Shown piece by piece: positions 7,997 through 17,732 of a stretch of 64,000 nucleotides of DNA. The number at the start of each line of letters is the position of its first letter. Positions within the stretch are counted from its first letter, which is position 1. The stretch spans positions 1 through 64,000 of the forward strand of contig LOEU01000021.1 of the NCBI GenBank assembly GCA_001516025.1. Reading direction: 5' to 3'. A program made the position numbers and the translations under genes. This DNA is from a bacterium BRH_c32 (GTDB taxonomy: Bacteria; Bacteroidota; Ignavibacteria; Ignavibacteriales; Melioribacteraceae). The notes below the pieces were generated by a model, which was given only the letters and a program-made list of their open reading frames with translations, searched no databases and was not told the DNA's origin.

Positions 7997-8584
7997 TTAT
8001 GTAGAATATTTCATCACCGTTCCGGTCGAAATATTCAAAAGTTTTGCTACTCCCCGGATTGAATTATTCTTTCTTAGCTCTAATAATATCCTTTCCTTCA
8101 TTTTTTCTTTTCCAGGGCGACCGATCTGTTTTCCATTAAGACGGGCTTTTTCTAATCCGGCTTTAGTTCGTTCGGATATCTTTTCTCTTTCAAGTTTTGC
8201 AAAGTAGCTCATTACCGATAAAAGAATGTTTGAGACAAGCTCGTTATCGGTTGTGAGATATTCTTCAGTGTAACTATGAAATTTTATACCATACTCATCC
8301 AACTGCTTTAAATACATCATCGTCTTAAAAATTCCTTCGCGCGAAAATCGGTCGATACTCCAAAAGATTATCATCTGAAATTTTCGTTGATGGGCTTCCT
8401 TAAACAACATATCAAAAGAAGCTCTTTCTTTTCTTCCTTTGGAGCCCGACTCGTGGTCTTCATAGATTTTGTAAATCTGATAGTTGTTTGATTTGCAAAA
8501 CTTTTTTAGCTGAATAATTTGGTTTTGTGTGTCTTGTCCATTGTTCTTAGTTAAAACTCTTGAATATATAGCTACTATCATCAT
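7997..8584 (-). CDS. Serine recombinase (resolvase/invertase family)
   Basis: This 195-residue protein has the resolvase catalytic fold. IYSRV near the N terminus carries catalytic Ser8. EDHESGSKGRKERASFDML, the FWSIDRFSREG motif and the long E helix LEREKISERTKAGLEKAR follow. The short C terminus, GVAKLLNISTGTVMKYS, is a helix-turn-helix, so this is a small resolvase/invertase rather than a large serine integrase. It converges on the membrane-protein gene with only 7 bp between stops. A 9-bp inverted repeat (GAATATTTC, 8004-8012 and 8028-8036) lies inside its last codons. It is probably what remains of the mobile element that carried the defence genes, although no att or res sites could be defined. 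Two ATGs are adjacent at the start. Confidence 0.9.
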   Translation of the reverse strand: MMIVAIYSRVLTKNNGQDTQNQIIQLKKFCKSNNYQIYKIYEDHESGSKGRKERASFDMLFKEAHQRKFQMIIFWSIDRFSREGIFKTMMYLKQLDEYGIKFHSYTEEYLTTDNELVSNILLSVMSYFAKLEREKISERTKAGLEKARLNGKQIGRPGKEKMKERILLELRKNNSIRGVAKLLNISTGTVMKYST

Positions 8585-9332: not shown

Positions 9333-12305
9333 ATGAGCACTGATAATGAGATAGAAACAATTCTGATCGTAGATGATATGTTGGTAAATCTTCATCTACT
9401 TTCAAAAATACTAACCGACCACGGTTATAAGGTGCGAGCAGTAAAAACAGGATATGAAACAATTGCCTCTGTAAATAATGAACTGCCGGATTTAATCTTA
9501 CTAGACATTATACTGCCGGATATAAATGGATACGAAGTATGCACTCAATTAAAAGCAAATGAAAAAACCTGTTTAGTCCCAATAATATTTTTAAGCGCAC
9601 TAGATAAAACCGAAGAAAAACTTCGCGGGTTTGAAGTTGGCGGAGTGGATTTTATAACAAAACCTTTTATAGTCGAAGAAGTTCTTGTCCGTGTTCAAAC
9701 ACATTTAGAAATTACTCGCCAAAGAACTCAACTTAAAAAAGATGCCGACTTTCTTATTCAATCAAACGATCTACTTAATCATGAAATAAAAGAACGAAAG
9801 TTAGCAGAAGAGAAAATAAAGTCACTTCTAAATAGTGTTGAAATAGAAAAAAGCATGCTGGAATCTTTAATTAACAGTATGACAGCTGAAGTGTGGTTTG
9901 CAGATAAAGACAAAATATATACGCTTGCCAATCCAATTGCTATAAAAACCTTTGGACTAAGTTCTAATGTGATGATAAAAGTAGAAGAATTTATCAGCAG
10001 TCTAAATATTTTACGGCCGGATGGAACTCCACTATTGGTAGAAGAACATCCAACGTTGAAAGCACTTAAAGGTGATACAGTTCTCAACCATGAGGAGATT
10101 GTTCAAATACCAACAACGGGTGAATTTAGATACCGTAGGATTAATGCTGCACCGGTAAAAGATTCAGATGGCAATATTATTGGTGCTGTTTCTGTTGTGC
10201 GCGATATTACTGAATATAAGCAGGCACAAAAAAAAATAATGGCTTCAGAAATTAAGTACCGCAGGCTCTTTGAATCTGCAAAAGATGGAATTCTAATTCT
10301 TGATGCCGAGACCGGAAAGATTGTGGATGTGAATCCATTTCTGATTGAGTTACTTGGTTATTCGCGTGAAGAATTTATTGAGAAAGCAATTTGGGAAATT
10401 GGATTCTTCAAAGATGTTGTAGCAAACTATGATAATTTTTTAGAATTACAGCAGCAAGAATATATTCGTTATGAAAATTTGCCGCTTGAAACGGCTGATG
10501 GGAGAAAGATAAATGTTGAATTTATAAGCAATGTTTATTTAGTAAATGAAAAAAAAGTAATTCAATGTAATATTAGAAACATTTCAGAAAGACTACTTGC
10601 AAAGCATAGACAAATATTTATAGCAAAAATATTGGCAATCTTAAACCGGCCAAATGATTGGCATAAAATTATTAATGATATTCTAACAGAGATAAAAAAA
10701 TTTACAAATTTTGATGCGGTTGCTATTCGTTTAAAAGAAGGTGATGACTATCCGTACTATGCTGTTAATGGGTTATCTGAAATATTTGTTTCGAAGGAAA
10801 GATTCCTATGTTCTAGGGACAAAAACGGGGATATTATATATGATGATAATGGAAAACCACATTTAGAATGTATGTGTGGGAACATCATTTCTAAGCGAAC
10901 AGATCCATTATTACCATTTTTTACTACCAAAGGAAGTTTCTGGTCCAACAATACCACAGAGTTACTAGCAAATAGCACAGAAGAAGAACTGCAGGCAACA
11001 ACACGTAACCACTGCAATGGAGCAGGTTATCAATCTGTAGCTTTAATACCCTTAATTAATAGTGATGAAACAATTGGCATTCTCCAGCTGAATGATAAAC
11101 GTACAAACCAGTTCACACTTGAAATGATCCATTTCTTTGAAAAAATAGCGATGTCATTAGGGATTGCTTTTAAGAGAATGAAAAATGAAAAATTGATAAA
11201 AGAGAGTGAAGAAAATCTTAGAGTTATTTTAGAATCTACAAATGATGGTATTTTAGCTGTTGATAAAAACAATAAGATTATAAAAACAAATAAACGCTTT
11301 ACTGAATTATGGGGCATTCCAAAAGAAATTATCGATTCTAAAGATGAAAATATTCTTTTAAATTTTATTCTCGAACAATTAATCAATCCCATAGAATTTT
11401 TAAATAAAGTAAATAAGTTAAATAATACTACAGAGTCAGATTACGATACTCTATTATTTAAAGATGGACGAATAATCGAAAGATCTTCTTATCACTTAAT
11501 ATTGGCAAATTCTATTTATGGACGTGTTTGGTCATTCCGTGATATTACCGAGCGCAAACGTAACGAGAAAGAATTATTTATTGCAAAAGAAAGAGCTGAG
11601 CAATCCGATAAACTAAAAACGGAATTCCTTTCTCAGATGTCTCACGAAGTTAGAACGCCCTTAAATGTTATTAACGGAAACGTTGAATACCTGAGTGAAA
11701 TATTAAATGACAATATAGATGATGAGGTGAAGCAATGTTTCAATGCAATAGGCTTAGCATCTGAACGAATAATAAGAACAATAGAGATAATTCTGAATTA
11801 TTCCGAATTACAAACCGGCGGGTATAAACCAGATTTAACATATATTGATTTGGGCAAGGATATTATTAACCCATTGATTGCTGAACATAAAAGATCAGCT
11901 GAAACAAAAGGTCTGAGAATTACATTTACCAATAAGATGGATGCCCGGCAGATTCAAGCTGATGAATACAGCATCAAACAGATATTTGCTAATTTGATTG
12001 ACAACGCTATTAAATATTCAAATCATGGCTACATTGAAATTCTGTTGGATATAAATGAAACAGGAAACATCTTTGTGCAAATAAAAGATACAGGCGTAGG
12101 GATGAGTCCGGAATTTCTTTCACATATATTTGAACCATTTGTTCAAGAAGAGCATGGATATTCCAGAAGTTATGACGGAAATGGGTTAGGATTAGCACTA
12201 GTGGAAAAATACTGTAAAATAAATAATGCCGTAATTGAAGTTGAAAGTAAAAAAAATATTGGTTCTACTTTTAAAGTTACGTTTAGCAACCCGGAGATAA
12301 AATGA
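9333..12305 (+). CDS. Sensor histidine kinase with N-terminal receiver (REC-PAS-PAS-GAF-PAS-HisKA-HATPase)
   Basis: This is a 990-residue cytoplasmic protein without membrane segments. Domains in order are: a receiver at about 9-125 with acidic VDD, phospho-acceptor D58 and K110; a coiled-coil linker; a PAS domain about 165-300; a PAS domain about 305-420; a GAF domain about 430-615 with conserved cysteines (C493, ECMCG at 512-516, NHC at 559-561); a PAS domain about 625-742; HisKA with SHEVRTP and H771; and a HATPase with N box NLIDNAIKYS, G1 DTGVGM and G2 GNGLGLAL. It integrates several internal signals and should phosphorylate the single-domain receiver whose gene overlaps its stop codon by 4 bp (ATGA). 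An upstream partner may in turn phosphorylate the N-terminal receiver. The signal is unknown; the Cys-rich GAF subtype recurs in many bacterial kinases. Confidence 0.93.
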   Translation: MSTDNEIETILIVDDMLVNLHLLSKILTDHGYKVRAVKTGYETIASVNNELPDLILLDIILPDINGYEVCTQLKANEKTCLVPIIFLSALDKTEEKLRGFEVGGVDFITKPFIVEEVLVRVQTHLEITRQRTQLKKDADFLIQSNDLLNHEIKERKLAEEKIKSLLNSVEIEKSMLESLINSMTAEVWFADKDKIYTLANPIAIKTFGLSSNVMIKVEEFISSLNILRPDGTPLLVEEHPTLKALKGDTVLNHEEIVQIPTTGEFRYRRINAAPVKDSDGNIIGAVSVVRDITEYKQAQKKIMASEIKYRRLFESAKDGILILDAETGKIVDVNPFLIELLGYSREEFIEKAIWEIGFFKDVVANYDNFLELQQQEYIRYENLPLETADGRKINVEFISNVYLVNEKKVIQCNIRNISERLLAKHRQIFIAKILAILNRPNDWHKIINDILTEIKKFTNFDAVAIRLKEGDDYPYYAVNGLSEIFVSKERFLCSRDKNGDIIYDDNGKPHLECMCGNIISKRTDPLLPFFTTKGSFWSNNTTELLANSTEEELQATTRNHCNGAGYQSVALIPLINSDETIGILQLNDKRTNQFTLEMIHFFEKIAMSLGIAFKRMKNEKLIKESEENLRVILESTNDGILAVDKNNKIIKTNKRFTELWGIPKEIIDSKDENILLNFILEQLINPIEFLNKVNKLNNTTESDYDTLLFKDGRIIERSSYHLILANSIYGRVWSFRDITERKRNEKELFIAKERAEQSDKLKTEFLSQMSHEVRTPLNVINGNVEYLSEILNDNIDDEVKQCFNAIGLASERIIRTIEIILNYSELQTGGYKPDLTYIDLGKDIINPLIAEHKRSAETKGLRITFTNKMDARQIQADEYSIKQIFANLIDNAIKYSNHGYIEILLDINETGNIFVQIKDTGVGMSPEFLSHIFEPFVQEEHGYSRSYDGNGLGLALVEKYCKINNAVIEVESKKNIGSTFKVTFSNPEIK

Positions 12306-12670
12306 AAAAGATACTTATTGTTGAAGATGATATATATTCCCAAGATTTGATGAGAAAAATATTTAGGAAAGATTTTGAAACTGATATATGCAGCTCTTCC
12401 GAAGAGTATCACGAAAAATATTCAGATAAGAAATACTGCGTAATGATAATAGACGTATCCATTAAGGGAAGAAAGAATGGATTGGAATTTATTAAGGAAA
12501 TTAGAGGAATAACTTCTACTAAGAATACGCCAATAATCTGTTTGACAGCACATGCTCAAACAAAAATGAGGGAGATGGCATTGGATTCAGGTGCAGACCT
12601 TTTTATTACAAAGCCTGTATTGAATAAAACACTTAAAGAAGCAATTACGTATTTAATCATGCGAACGTAA
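12302..12670 (+). CDS. Stand-alone response-regulator receiver
   Basis: The 122-residue protein consists only of a receiver domain: acidic pair in VEDD, phospho-acceptor D51 in MIIDVSIKG, T82 in CLTAHAQ, and K104 in ITKPV. It has no DNA-binding or enzymatic output domain, so it must act by protein contact or relay phosphate. The start overlaps the kinase stop (ATGA), which makes that kinase the probable partner. Confidence 0.92.
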   Translation: MKKILIVEDDIYSQDLMRKIFRKDFETDICSSSEEYHEKYSDKKYCVMIIDVSIKGRKNGLEFIKEIRGITSTKNTPIICLTAHAQTKMREMALDSGADLFITKPVLNKTLKEAITYLIMRT

Positions 12671-12829: not shown

Positions 12830-13333
12830 ATGAGAACTTCTAATAACGTTTGTTATCGAATAGCGCGAAAAATATGTTTAACGGCTGCAATAATGGCAAC
12901 CTATACCGGCATTGCATTTTGTACGCCAAATAAGATTAATAGTTTTCAAGAATTATTAACGGCCCTCAAATCAGGGCAAAGTGTTAAAGTTATTATTCAT
13001 TATTCAAATTGCAGATTAGTGATTGCCGGTAAAGATGAAAAAGCTCCGGAAGCTATTGGCGGTATGGAATTAAAATTATTTGAATATTTTGATGTCGGTG
13101 CCGTTAATAATAAAAAAGCATTCATTTCATCTTCGGAAAATATTCTTATTTCTCATCCGCGTTATGGGTATGTTTATAATTATGTCAAGTTGCGCTTCTT
13201 TGAAGATGAATCGGTTGAGATAATTGCAAGGTATCTGGAACCTAAAACTTTTGAAGTGAAGATGGATGAAACATTTTATACAACCATTAATAATATAGAA
13301 AATGATGGGGCAGTATATTTATATTCCGATTGA
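12830..13333 (+). CDS. VirK-family secreted protein
   Basis: The 167-residue protein starts with a basic and hydrophobic signal peptide (cleavage probably after AFC near residue 31). Then comes FQELLTALKSGQSVKVIIHYSNCRL, which matches the conserved opening of the VirK family (Pfam VirK). A GGMELKLFEYF segment and beta-rich C-terminal half follow. The function of the family is poorly defined; it was named from a virulence-inducible gene in plant-associated bacteria. Here it lies between a kinase/receiver pair and a B12-binding sensor, overlapping none, which suggests a periplasmic output or accessory of the signalling cluster. No secretion system is nearby. Confidence 0.65.
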   Translation: MRTSNNVCYRIARKICLTAAIMATYTGIAFCTPNKINSFQELLTALKSGQSVKVIIHYSNCRLVIAGKDEKAPEAIGGMELKLFEYFDVGAVNNKKAFISSSENILISHPRYGYVYNYVKLRFFEDESVEIIARYLEPKTFEVKMDETFYTTINNIENDGAVYLYSD

Positions 13334-13350
13334 TTTTAAGAGGAGGCAGT

Positions 13351-14409
13351 ATGGAAAACCTTAATAGAGAAACTTCGCAAAAGATCCTAGATTTAAAAAG
13401 TAGTTTGCCGCTGATAATTCTTGAAAAACAATTTTTACTTCAACCCCGATTAAAAGAGCAGTATAGTGAAAGGCACAAAAAATTATACTTAGAAGATACT
13501 GCATTTCATTTCAGTTATTTGGCGGAATCAATTGCTGCCGATGAACCAATTCTCTTTAACGAATATTTGAGCTGGGCTAAAATATTTTTTTCTACTTTAC
13601 CTATTGATCTAAATGATATTATTCTGAATTTAGAAATTTTGAGAGATACTCTCGCTTCGAACATGAATTCTGAGATGGCAGCATTAACCAACAGGTATGT
13701 AAATGAAGGAATTGATAAATTCAAAAGTCAAAGCGCTGAGCTTGCATCTTTCATTCTGGAATCTAATCCGTTAAATACTATTGCATCCGACTATTTAAAT
13801 TTCTTAATAGATGGAAACAAAAAAGATGCGCTGGATTTAATATTAGAAATTGTCAATAAGGGAATTTCGATAAAAGATATCTACTTAAATATTTTTCAGG
13901 CAACACAAAAGGAAACCGGAAGATTGTGGCAGATGGGCAAAATAACCGTTGCGCAGGAACATTTTATTACCGCAGCCACCCAGCTTATTATGTCTCAGCT
14001 TTATCCCTATCTATTCTCTTCAACTAAAAAAGAAAAGAAAATTATTATTACTTGCGCCTCAGGCGAACTACATGAAATAGGAGCCCGAATGGTAGCGGAT
14101 TTATTTGAAATGGATGGATGGAATTCCTATTTCTTTGGAGCTAATACTCCACAGAATAGCTTCATTTCAGCCATTGAAGTTTATAAACCGGAAGTGATTG
14201 CTATATCTACAACTATGACTTTTAATCTTAGCACTGTTTCAGATTTGATTAATAGTGTAAGAAAGAATCCTAAGACTAATTATGTTAAAATACTTGTGGG
14301 CGGTTATCCTTTTAATCTGGCAGATAATCTATGGCAAAGTGTGGGCGCAGATGGGCATGCGATGGATGCACTAAGCGCAATAAATCTTGCAAATGAATTC
14401 TTAAATTGA
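13351..14409 (+). CDS. Stand-alone cobalamin-binding sensor with CarH-type photoreceptor motif
   Basis: I place the start at ATG 13351 because AGGAGG lies at 13341-13346; an upstream TTG in frame at 13330 would put this site inside the coding region. The 352-residue protein has an N-terminal helical region (about 1-135) of unknown fold, a four-helix B12-binding cap (about 140-225) and a Rossmann-like B12-binding domain (about 230-352). The cap contains W193, nine residues, then E203-H204, which is the Wx9EH signature of CarH/LitR-type photoreceptors. The binding domain has ELHEIG (E239, H241, G244), an ExHxxG motif whose histidine is the lower cobalt ligand. GGYPFN and GADGHA follow. No MerR helix-turn-helix is present. 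By homology it could bind adenosylcobalamin or methylcobalamin and change state on light or redox change. Adjacent kinases suggest it regulates phosphorylation. Confidence 0.85.
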   Translation: MENLNRETSQKILDLKSSLPLIILEKQFLLQPRLKEQYSERHKKLYLEDTAFHFSYLAESIAADEPILFNEYLSWAKIFFSTLPIDLNDIILNLEILRDTLASNMNSEMAALTNRYVNEGIDKFKSQSAELASFILESNPLNTIASDYLNFLIDGNKKDALDLILEIVNKGISIKDIYLNIFQATQKETGRLWQMGKITVAQEHFITAATQLIMSQLYPYLFSSTKKEKKIIITCASGELHEIGARMVADLFEMDGWNSYFFGANTPQNSFISAIEVYKPEVIAISTTMTFNLSTVSDLINSVRKNPKTNYVKILVGGYPFNLADNLWQSVGADGHAMDALSAINLANEFLN

Positions 14410-14416
14410 ATGAAAT

Positions 14417-15607
14417 ATGATCTACACAGACAAAGGATTGTTAATTACATGTGAGCTTGACGGAAGAATCAATATGGTTCACTACAGTAAATTCGAATCC
14501 GGCGAGACGGTTACAAATGGAAAACTATTTGTAGAGCTATTCAATCAAGAATCGATTGGCAAGGTGCTGGATTTTATTGTCGAGATTAAGAAAAGATCTG
14601 CTTCATTTGGTTGGGAGTTGTTTCTTAAACCGGAATTTTCACTTGAACCGTACTATTTTGGCGGTGTTTTAATTGACGATTCTATTACAATTCTTGCTTC
14701 AAAAAATAAAGTTGATTTTAATAAGTTTCTATCCGGTATAGCTCAGATGAATAATGAGCAGATAAATAAAATAAGAGCTTTAGAGAAAGTTCAAACCGGG
14801 CCGGAAGAATCAAAGATTGATAAAAGCAGTTATTTATTTGATGAAATAAGCCGGTTAAATAATGAATTGGTAAACACGCAAAGAGAGCTTACAAAAAAGA
14901 ATATTGAGTTGGCAGAATTAAATACTCTTAAAAATCAATTTCTTGGAATGGCTGCTCACGATTTAAGAAATCCACTCGGTTTTATTTATAATTTCGTAGA
15001 ATTTATTGAAGAAGAAAGAGAAAATCTCTCTCAAGAACAAATCGAATTTATTGGACAGATAAAATCTTTAAGCAAATTTCTGCTTAACCTGGTAACGGAT
15101 CTATTGGATGTTTCTTCAATTGAAGCCGGTGAAATTAATTTAATTCTGGAACAAATAGACTTAATCTATTTTATAGATCAAAACGTAAAACGTAATAGAT
15201 TTTTAGCTCAGAAGAAAAATATAACAATAAATTTTACGACGAACTGTGAAAACCTGATGATGCAAATAGATAAAAACAAAATTGAGCAAGTAATGACAAA
15301 TCTTATTACAAATGCTATTAAGTTTTCGCAGGCAAACACAATAATTAATGTTGGTCTTAAATTAGACGAGACAAATGTGATTATTTCGGTTACCGATCAA
15401 GGTCAAGGAATAGATAAAGAAGAACTGAATCTTTTATTTAAGCCATTTAAGAAGACTAGCACAAAAAGCACTGCCGGAGAAAAAAGCACAGGTCTAGGAT
15501 TATTTATTGTAAAAAGAATTGTTGAAGCCCATAATGGGAAAATATGGGCAGAAAGTGAATTAACCAAAGGAAGCACTTTTATCGTTTCGCTTCCAATTCA
15601 TATATAA
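14417..15607 (+). CDS. Soluble sensor histidine kinase downstream of the B12 sensor
   Basis: This 396-residue protein starts 7 bp after the B12-sensor stop. The N-terminal 110 residues form a PAS-like alpha/beta domain that I cannot assign to a named family (GRINMVHYS, then a repeated FGGVLIDDSITILASK segment). A coiled coil (about 140-170) leads to HisKA with AAHDLRNPL and H181. The HATPase has N box NLITNAIKFS, G1 DQGQGID and G2 STGLGLFIVKRI. There are no membrane segments. It is probably the kinase that reads the B12-binding protein, and its receiver partner is the next gene. The pairing is inferred from gene order. Confidence 0.9.
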   Translation: MIYTDKGLLITCELDGRINMVHYSKFESGETVTNGKLFVELFNQESIGKVLDFIVEIKKRSASFGWELFLKPEFSLEPYYFGGVLIDDSITILASKNKVDFNKFLSGIAQMNNEQINKIRALEKVQTGPEESKIDKSSYLFDEISRLNNELVNTQRELTKKNIELAELNTLKNQFLGMAAHDLRNPLGFIYNFVEFIEEERENLSQEQIEFIGQIKSLSKFLLNLVTDLLDVSSIEAGEINLILEQIDLIYFIDQNVKRNRFLAQKKNITINFTTNCENLMMQIDKNKIEQVMTNLITNAIKFSQANTIINVGLKLDETNVIISVTDQGQGIDKEELNLLFKPFKKTSTKSTAGEKSTGLGLFIVKRIVEAHNGKIWAESELTKGSTFIVSLPIHI

Positions 15608-15622
15608 TTGATTGAGAATATT

Positions 15623-16000
15623 ATGAAATCAGTAAGTAATAAAAAAATATTAATAGTTGAGGACGAAGAGGAAAGTCAGAAGATATTTCGAAGAATGTTA
15701 GTTGGCTACGACCTTTCTTTTTGTGTATCTGAAATGACTTTAATGGAAAAATTAAGAGAATCTGAATATGGGGTGATTCTAATGGATATTGGGCTTGCCG
15801 GTTCGAAAGATGGACTAATGTTAATTAGGGAACTCAAGTCTACTCCAAAATACTCATCCATTCCAATAATATCCGTAACATCAAGAGTTTACTCAAAACA
15901 GAGAATTCTTGCTACAGAAGCTGGAGCTGCCGCTTATTTGACGAAACCAATTTCAAAAACATTGCTAATTGAAACTATTGAAAAATGTCTTATTCAATAG
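15623..16000 (+). CDS. Stand-alone response-regulator receiver
   Basis: ATG 15623 gives 125 residues that begin directly before the receiver fold; an in-frame TTG at 15608 is possible but has no better ribosome site. Acidic residues in VEDEEE, phospho-acceptor D55 in ILMDIGLAG, a conserved S/T region (ISVTSR) and K in LTKPIS are all present. As with the other receiver in this island, no output domain is attached. It follows the kinase after 15 bp and is probably its phosphate acceptor. Confidence 0.9.
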   Translation: MKSVSNKKILIVEDEEESQKIFRRMLVGYDLSFCVSEMTLMEKLRESEYGVILMDIGLAGSKDGLMLIRELKSTPKYSSIPIISVTSRVYSKQRILATEAGAAAYLTKPISKTLLIETIEKCLIQ

Positions 16001-16040
16001 ATATATTTTTAGTGACCATTATAGGTGCCAAAAAGTTACT

Positions 16041-17732
16041 ATGCTTACATCTGAAATAAAAACTGCTTCATTAGACGAGTATAATTCAAAATCATTGAAG
16101 ATTGCATCTGCAATTGCATTAATTGCAGGTACGTGGTCTTTATTGTTTGAAATATTCTATTTTCACTATTTTGTATTGGACATCTATTTTGCAAGAGTTT
16201 CTTTTACAATAATATCTTTGACTATCTTTTTGTTTTCATTTAAGGAACTTTCCGGACTAGTTTCAACTATCCTTATTCATTTGTTGATTATATCACTCAT
16301 CAGCTCCTTTATTTATACTATTTATAAAATTCCTGCTACTCTTTTCATCAACTCTCAGATTATTTCTTTATTAATATTTACAACCGCACTAATATTTAGC
16401 TGGGAAGTAAAAAATCAAATTATTGTCGCTATTTACTATAACATTCTTTTTGCAGCATCTATAATATTTAATGGATCAAGTATTTTTCTTCTTCCAGATC
16501 TATTCTCAATTACCATTTTTGTCTCCCTTATTAGTTTACTTAGCGTTGTTGCAAGCGCAATAAATTATAAACTGCGGGAAATATATAAGCAAAAGAGTGA
16601 TGAAAATAATTTCCTGTTCAATTCTCTCCCGTTAGGTATTTGCAGAACTGATATTCATGGCAACATAATATCAGCTAATAAATATTTAAATCGGCTGCTC
16701 GGAATAAATGATAAAGAGAATAAATTATTTAATTATCTATTAAGTGATACACTGAAAGAGAATTTTGAAAAAGGAATTACGAAAAATATTGAGATGGAAG
16801 TTGAGTATGAAAAAGAAGGCAGGATAAGACACTTAAATGTTATTGCGGATGTTATTACTGATAATGAATCTGCAAAATCATATGGATTTATTATCCAGGA
16901 TAATACTGAAGTAATAATAGCAAAGCACGAAAAAGAAAGAGCAAATAAAAAATTACTTGATGAAATAACCGAGAAAGAAAAAATATTAAGAGTAGCGTTA
17001 CTACAAAAAAATCAAAAACTTCAGTTACTTGCAAAGATAAACCATGAAGTAAGAACTCCTCTTAACGCAATTCTTTTATTCCATGAAATGGTTGGAGATA
17101 ATATTCTTAAATCAGTTGAAGAAATAAAAACATATTCCAAATCTGTAAAAACATCTTCTAGCCATCTGCTTAATACTATTAATAATTTCATTGACTACGC
17201 AAAAATAGAAACAGGTAAAATGGAAGTGGAGGAGGAGCTGTTTAATATTAAGGAAGAAATAACCGGTGTCATACAATTATTAACTCCCCTAACGTTTAAT
17301 AAAAATATCTCTCTATATCTTAGAATTGATGATGACTGCCTGAACTTGGCTTTCACAGATGCAGTGAAATACAGGCAAATAATGATTAATCTAATTGCTA
17401 ATTCACTTAAGTTTACTAAAGTTGGTAATGTAACGGTTTTTTTGAAAAATGTTCTCGTTGAAAAAGATAAATATATGATTACGACAATTATAGAAGATAC
17501 AGGAATAGGAATACCGCTAGATAAACTTGATTATATTTTTGATCCTTTTGTTTCATCCGGTAATGTAGAAGAAACACAGCATAGCAGCGGACTTGGACTT
17601 GCAATATGTAAAGAATTCATTCAAATGCTCGGTGGAAATATAATTGTTGAAAGCATCCTCGGCAAAGGATCTAAATTTACTTTAACACTCCCTTATGAGT
17701 ATAATCCGGCAATTCAACCACAAATAAGATGA
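16041..17732 (+). CDS. Membrane-bound PAS sensor histidine kinase
   Basis: I chose ATG 16041 over an in-frame upstream start at 15969, because the latter would overlap the receiver gene by 32 bp and adds a non-conserved leader. The 563-residue protein has about six hydrophobic helices between residues 20 and 175. A PAS domain (about 187-295; LPLGICRTDIHGNIISANKY) and coiled coil follow. HisKA has KINHEVRTPL with H335. The HATPase has N box NLIANSLKFT, G1 EDTGIGIP and G2 SSGLGLAICKEF. It is the last gene of the signalling run and lacks a dedicated receiver, so it probably feeds one of the two free receivers. Confidence 0.9.
   Translation: MLTSEIKTASLDEYNSKSLKIASAIALIAGTWSLLFEIFYFHYFVLDIYFARVSFTIISLTIFLFSFKELSGLVSTILIHLLIISLISSFIYTIYKIPATLFINSQIISLLIFTTALIFSWEVKNQIIVAIYYNILFAASIIFNGSSIFLLPDLFSITIFVSLISLLSVVASAINYKLREIYKQKSDENNFLFNSLPLGICRTDIHGNIISANKYLNRLLGINDKENKLFNYLLSDTLKENFEKGITKNIEMEVEYEKEGRIRHLNVIADVITDNESAKSYGFIIQDNTEVIIAKHEKERANKKLLDEITEKEKILRVALLQKNQKLQLLAKINHEVRTPLNAILLFHEMVGDNILKSVEEIKTYSKSVKTSSSHLLNTINNFIDYAKIETGKMEVEEELFNIKEEITGVIQLLTPLTFNKNISLYLRIDDDCLNLAFTDAVKYRQIMINLIANSLKFTKVGNVTVFLKNVLVEKDKYMITTIIEDTGIGIPLDKLDYIFDPFVSSGNVEETQHSSGLGLAICKEFIQMLGGNIIVESILGKGSKFTLTLPYEYNPAIQPQIR

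Follow-up and report, generated by a model that had tools for sequence, protein, structure and literature searches.

Photocobilins, a recent class, are defined by the fusion of a B12-binding module to a globin, not by domain order, and the two characterized members, the stand-alone SasPcob and AbDPcob (AbPcob), which is fused to a diguanylate cyclase, bind adenosylcobalamin (AdoCbl) and biliverdin and are converted by both red and green light (PDB 8J2W, 8J2X, and 8J2Y; PMC10979010). In SasPcob, biliverdin is held at its A, B, and C rings by Asp270, while Trp296 touches both its D ring and the corrin; AbPcob has a His in place of Asp270 and binds biliverdin poorly (PMC10979010). Neither protein carries the Cys to which phycobilins are attached, and photocobilins of the stand-alone kind reportedly influence other proteins through contact, with the term “histidine kinase” absent from the paper that describes them (PMC10979010). 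The signatures of light-responsive B12 modules are GxxW, EH, GxxH, and GxxxP, and SasPcob, with a Gln after the Trp, does not form a bis-His light state (PMC11796333).

The window analyzed here is a stretch of 64,000 nucleotides from the bacterium BRH_c32 (contig LOEU01000021.1), and one of its genes encodes a protein, hereafter the sensor, for which the closest known system is, as judged from sequence, a photocobilin and not CarH, since its globin is of the phycobiliprotein/photoglobin type and keeps the Asp and Trp of SasPcob. A globin together with a B12 domain, as in the photoglobin-B12 proteins of Schneider et al. in 2022 (cited in PMC10151467 and PMC11796333), has reportedly been predicted to serve as a light-sensing unit in signaling. 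That family very probably contains the window protein. By sequence, the window protein resembles a photocobilin whose two domains have changed places and whose predicted partner is a dedicated histidine kinase; the 2022 photoglobin survey may list similar architectures.

The sensor gene encodes a B12 module with the complete light-responsive signature

The sensor open reading frame is real, as it begins with ATG behind a Shine-Dalgarno GAGGAGG and its start matches that of full-length homologues in the alignment (Table 1). Both Pfam B12 domains scored well over cut-off, and together the B12-binding module spans residues 147 to 344. All four light-responsive signatures of PMC11796333 are present in the sensor (GRLW193, E203-H204, GELH241, and GANTP267), and W193, E203, H204, and H241 are invariant in 23 sensor homologues (alignment A1). 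The preliminary description had read W193-x9-E203-H204 and E239-L-H241-E-I-G244 as CarH/LitR motifs in a protein devoid of a DNA-binding domain and followed directly by a kinase and a receiver. Both motifs are there, Pfam found no MerR domain, and the two downstream genes are as described. The likeness to CarH/LitR (5C8D, NF052513) holds for the AdoCbl-binding light-sensing module and its CarH-type signature, but not for the nearest system, in view of the globin with the SasPcob Asp and Trp. The sensor differs from CarH in having no MerR domain and in placing Q194 at the position of TtCarH H132, which takes part in the bis-His state, and the CarH model NF052513 scored it at 45 bits against a cut-off of 400. 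The missing MerR domain, Q194, and the low score together rule out CarH membership. SasPcob too has Gln at the position of residue 194, so a CarH bis-His light state is not expected (PMC11796333).

Table 1. Features of the sensor locus, with window coordinates.
Feature	Position	Strand	Evidence
Small VirK-like protein directly upstream of sensor	12830..13333	+	PF06903 23.6 bits, cut-off 23.7
Shine-Dalgarno GAGGAGG of sensor gene	13340..13346	+	sequence read directly
Sensor gene, 352 aa, photocobilin-like, globin N-terminal	13351..14409	+	ATG start, Pfam, homologues
Predicted bilin-type globin, residues 1-142, phycobiliprotein/photoglobin family	13351..13776	+	sequence profiles
Y46, position of phycobilin-attachment Cys	13486..13488	+	alignment to phycobiliproteins
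D49, equivalent of SasPcob Asp270 and phycobiliprotein CxRD Asp	13495..13497	+	alignments, PMC10979010
W75, equivalent of SasPcob Trp296	13573..13575	+	alignment to 8j2w, PMC10979010
B12-binding helical bundle PF02607 (B12-binding_2), residues 147-217	13789..14001	+	Pfam E 4.9e-14
W193 of GxxW	13927..13929	+	alignment; stacks on adenosyl in CarH and SasPcob
E203-H204, EH motif	13957..13962	+	alignment
B12-binding Rossmann domain PF02310, residues 230-344	14038..14382	+	Pfam E 4.1e-20
H241 of GxxH, predicted lower axial cobalt ligand	14071..14073	+	alignment
Histidine kinase: PAS-like input (about 1-100), linker helices, HisKA (H181), HATPase	14417..15607	+	Pfam, AlphaFold2
Single-domain receiver, candidate phosphate acceptor	15608..16000	+	Pfam

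An AlphaFold2 model of the sensor (pLDDT 93.2, pTM 0.87) was all-helical over residues 1 to 126. Foldseek comparison of this model with PDB placed CtMerR 8jbs and SasPcob 8j2w among the top matches, the latter with an rmsd of 1.8 over 209 columns confined to the B12 half, as expected of a sequential alignment between proteins with swapped domain order. Like the characterized photocobilins, the sensor combines a B12 module bearing the WEH signature with a bilin-type globin in which D49 and W75 stand for Asp270 and Trp296, and like SasPcob it has Gln after Trp and is a stand-alone protein. Unlike both characterized members, which have the globin at the C terminus, the sensor has it at the N terminus, is paired with a dedicated histidine kinase, and shares about 27% identity with them over the B12 part. 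As the family is defined by fusion and the order differs, we refer to the window protein as photocobilin-like.

A second, B12-only protein of about 220 aa with a complete W/EH/ExH signature (L002 1459-2127, G000:C35; L017-L038) is widespread, occurring in this genome and in many members of the family, and its gene has no kinase beside it but genes for a membrane protein and a lipoprotein-like product. Viral relatives of the sensor were not found in IMG/VR, and two phage records matched its B12 half only.

The N-terminal region is a bilin-type globin

The N-terminal part of the sensor had been regarded as a helical region of unknown fold. With the single sequence (residues 1 to 141), searches returned weak matches to allophycocyanin subunits and to photocobilin 8j2w. 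Profile A2, made from 19 homologous N-terminal domains and searched against PDB, matched allophycocyanin alpha-B (3.5e-8), SasPcob 8j2w (4e-5), and AbPcob 8j2y (1e-4), and nearly all of its matches below 0.01 were phycobiliproteins, engineered phycobiliproteins, or photocobilins. Of the 19 A2 members, 17 matched the Pfam Phycobilisome model PF00502 with E values of 1 or less, the lowest being 1.6e-7; the window protein alone reached only E 0.012. By these profiles, residues 1 to 142 are a phycobiliprotein/photoglobin-type globin, an assignment that rests on the profiles and the helix content because the Foldseek alignments listed cover the B12 half.

We assigned D49 and W75 from the 8j2w alignment with the numbering of PMC10979010 (Trp61 is chain index 55, an offset of +6). 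Both residues are invariant in all 19 A2 homologues, and a comparison of 27 full-length sequences showed D49 in 23 of them. At position 46, three residues ahead of D49, the window protein and those closest to it have Tyr, and the globin domain of the window protein contains no Cys at all. The sensor shares the globin fold and the CxRD-type Asp with BBAG bilin-binding globins and phycobiliproteins (PF00502; PMC10151467), from which it differs by its fusion to a B12 domain and by Y46 instead of the CxRD-type Cys. A Cys does occupy this attachment position in 11 of the 27 sequences, in a sister branch that includes most of family f43, G118, Azospirillum (including Azospirillum brasilense), and Skermanella. 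For this branch covalent bilin binding is a prediction only.

A second globin copy was not found in the genome, and every globin-profile match in the phylum sample opens an open reading frame of about 350 to 370 aa, the exception being a split copy in one genome of genus g41 (G213; L044/L056). There the sensor is divided into two open reading frames of 173 and 169 aa (G213:C1 288838-289901), with the break between the globin/bundle and Rossmann halves and the kinase intact, representing a pseudogene or a sequencing error. One Methanobacteriaceae MAG (L006) has a separate B12 protein and, next to it, a globin-like protein of 141 aa (hhalign probability 76, E 2e-5). The gene at L006 6653-7078, flanked by those for the B12 protein and for a HisKA_2-like kinase, may, tentatively, encode the globin independently. 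This kinase has the same input domain as the window kinase; contamination of the MAG is possible.

Chromophore supply and alternative functions of the sensor

The genome encodes a PduO-type adenosyltransferase, which makes AdoCbl a plausible cofactor. A search of this genome, which is 94% complete, found no canonical heme oxygenase (PF01126), so that biliverdin has no evident source and a bilin is no more than a candidate chromophore in the window species. Among 25 carriers tested, PF01126 was detected in one (G631), whose divergent sensor lacks D49. Ferrochelatase was likewise not found in this genome and was found in all 11 relatives tested. The anaerobilin synthase TIGR04107 gave no match over cut-off in 12 genomes; matches under the cut-off, probably HemN/HemW-like, were rejected as an anaerobic bilin source. 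Seven Azospirillum plasmids with a sensor homologue also carry a heme oxygenase gene.

These observations bear on the strongest alternative, in which the globin has lost its bilin in this lineage and persists as a lid on the corrin and a contact surface for the kinase, leaving a photoreceptor that uses AdoCbl only. Such a protein would fit the lack of PF01126 here and in all but one of the other 24 carriers, the absence of over-threshold anaerobilin synthase and of a detected ferrochelatase, and the AbDPcob precedent of poor biliverdin binding, and W75 could be retained for corrin contact alone. However, D49, the biliverdin ligand that AbPcob has lost, is retained across the homologues as described above, and a heme oxygenase outside PF01126 or bilin uptake could provide the chromophore in a genome that is not fully complete. 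We regard this alternative as possible but somewhat doubtful.

We consider it unlikely that the sensor reports B12 availability or redox state to the kinase, according to whether AdoCbl is bound, rather than light. The same fold can signal cofactor occupancy and the adenosyltransferase is present, but the light-responsive signature is complete with an invariant EH pair contacting the adenosyl group, the retention of bilin-type residues in the pocket is best understood as serving light capture, and nothing was found in favor of the redox or B12 input that the preliminary description had also allowed. That the sensor is the MtaC/MtgC-like corrinoid component of a methyltransferase system is highly improbable and is ruled out by motifs and cut-offs: NCBIfam corrinoid models score highest, yet the best of them, MtgC, reaches 87.7 bits against a cut-off of 370, the adjacent genes are two-component and VirK-like genes with no methyltransferase among them, and the full W/EH/GxxxP set is missing from two ordinary corrinoid-like proteins that this genome also encodes (L003 and L004), which sets the sensor apart from ordinary corrinoid carriers.

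The sensor is paired with a histidine kinase that has a PAS-like input domain

AlphaFold2 modeled the input domain of the downstream kinase as strand-strand-helix-helix-three strands (pLDDT about 85) followed by long linker helices, which carry NNEQxNxIR and NNELVNxQREL. In the 13 class loci covered (L045-L057), the genes for this kinase and the sensor are immediate neighbors, and the kinase also adjoins the sensor in eight family f43 homologues of another class (L058-L065) and in A. brasilense (L075). As close relatives adjoin one particular kinase gene, light probably reaches signaling through that kinase. A few genomes, G048 among them, combine a B12-only sensor with a shorter kinase. The kinase is absent beside the most divergent full-length relatives (L008, L067, and L068), in which D49 is also missing, and no such kinase stands beside the Skermanella homologue (L076).

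We searched 294 genomes of the class with profile A4, which represents the kinase input domain alone. The domain was found in 11, the same 11 that have the sensor, in one copy each and immediately adjacent; as A4 includes sequences from carrier genomes, the positive side of this result is partly built in, whereas the absence from the other 283 is not. The proposal of an input into phosphorelay signaling thus gained from this co-occurrence. The input domain and the NNELxNxQREL linker are kept where the catalytic part belongs to another HisKA type (SVSHDLKEPLR; L061-L064) or is HisKA_2-like (L006), and in Ilyobacter the sensor has as its neighbor a GGDEF protein whose linker is similar (MNIEMSNLTREL). 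Persistence of input and linker, exchange of outputs, and strict pairing form the pattern that a dedicated input module would show, and the kinase looks like a dedicated partner of the sensor. The receiver gene that follows is not conserved directly beside the kinase in other genomes.

Proposed mechanism of light signaling

Our data favor, with a fair measure of confidence, a stand-alone photocobilin-like photoreceptor with the order globin then B12 that controls a separate, dedicated histidine kinase, and the locus would be best explained if light cleaved AdoCbl and this event were passed to the kinase through protein contact. In the dark, AdoCbl would lie between the helical bundle and the Rossmann domain of a sensor dimer, with H241 beneath the cobalt and the adenosyl group held by W193, E203, and H204. 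The Co-C bond would break under green light, or under red light should the globin hold a bilin, and the light state is expected to be aquo/hydroxo as in SasPcob since residue 194 is Gln. The sensor may then change its shape or oligomer and so meet the kinase differently at the PAS-like domain and linker helices, which would affect both kinase autophosphorylation at H181 and the flow of phosphate, perhaps to the receiver encoded at 15608.

A broader proposal, which we hold with less assurance, is that of a two-gene light-signaling cassette, in which an N-globin photocobilin would work in trans with a dedicated PAS-like input and conserved linker joined to varied outputs (two HisKA types, HisKA_2-like, and perhaps GGDEF). 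The Cys branch (Azospirillum and others) might bind bilin covalently, unlike any characterized photocobilin. The sensor family would link photocobilins to two-component signaling via a separate, identifiable kinase input module, and the question of what a stand-alone photocobilin regulates would become directly testable, with a homologue available in a laboratory bacterium, A. brasilense, where the plasmid bearing this homologue also encodes a heme oxygenase. The sensor-kinase pair also suggests modular green/red optogenetic control of kinases.

Genes flanking the sensor-kinase pair

The sensor-kinase pair is embedded among genes for two more histidine kinases, one hybrid and the other probably membrane-bound, and for two single receivers (9333-12670 and 15969-17732), the whole cluster being on the same strand. 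Among the loci examined, a VirK-like gene occupies the same place only in L051, where it is 48% identical. A serine-recombinase-like open reading frame of the resolvase/invertase type lies upstream of the cluster on the minus strand (7997-8584).
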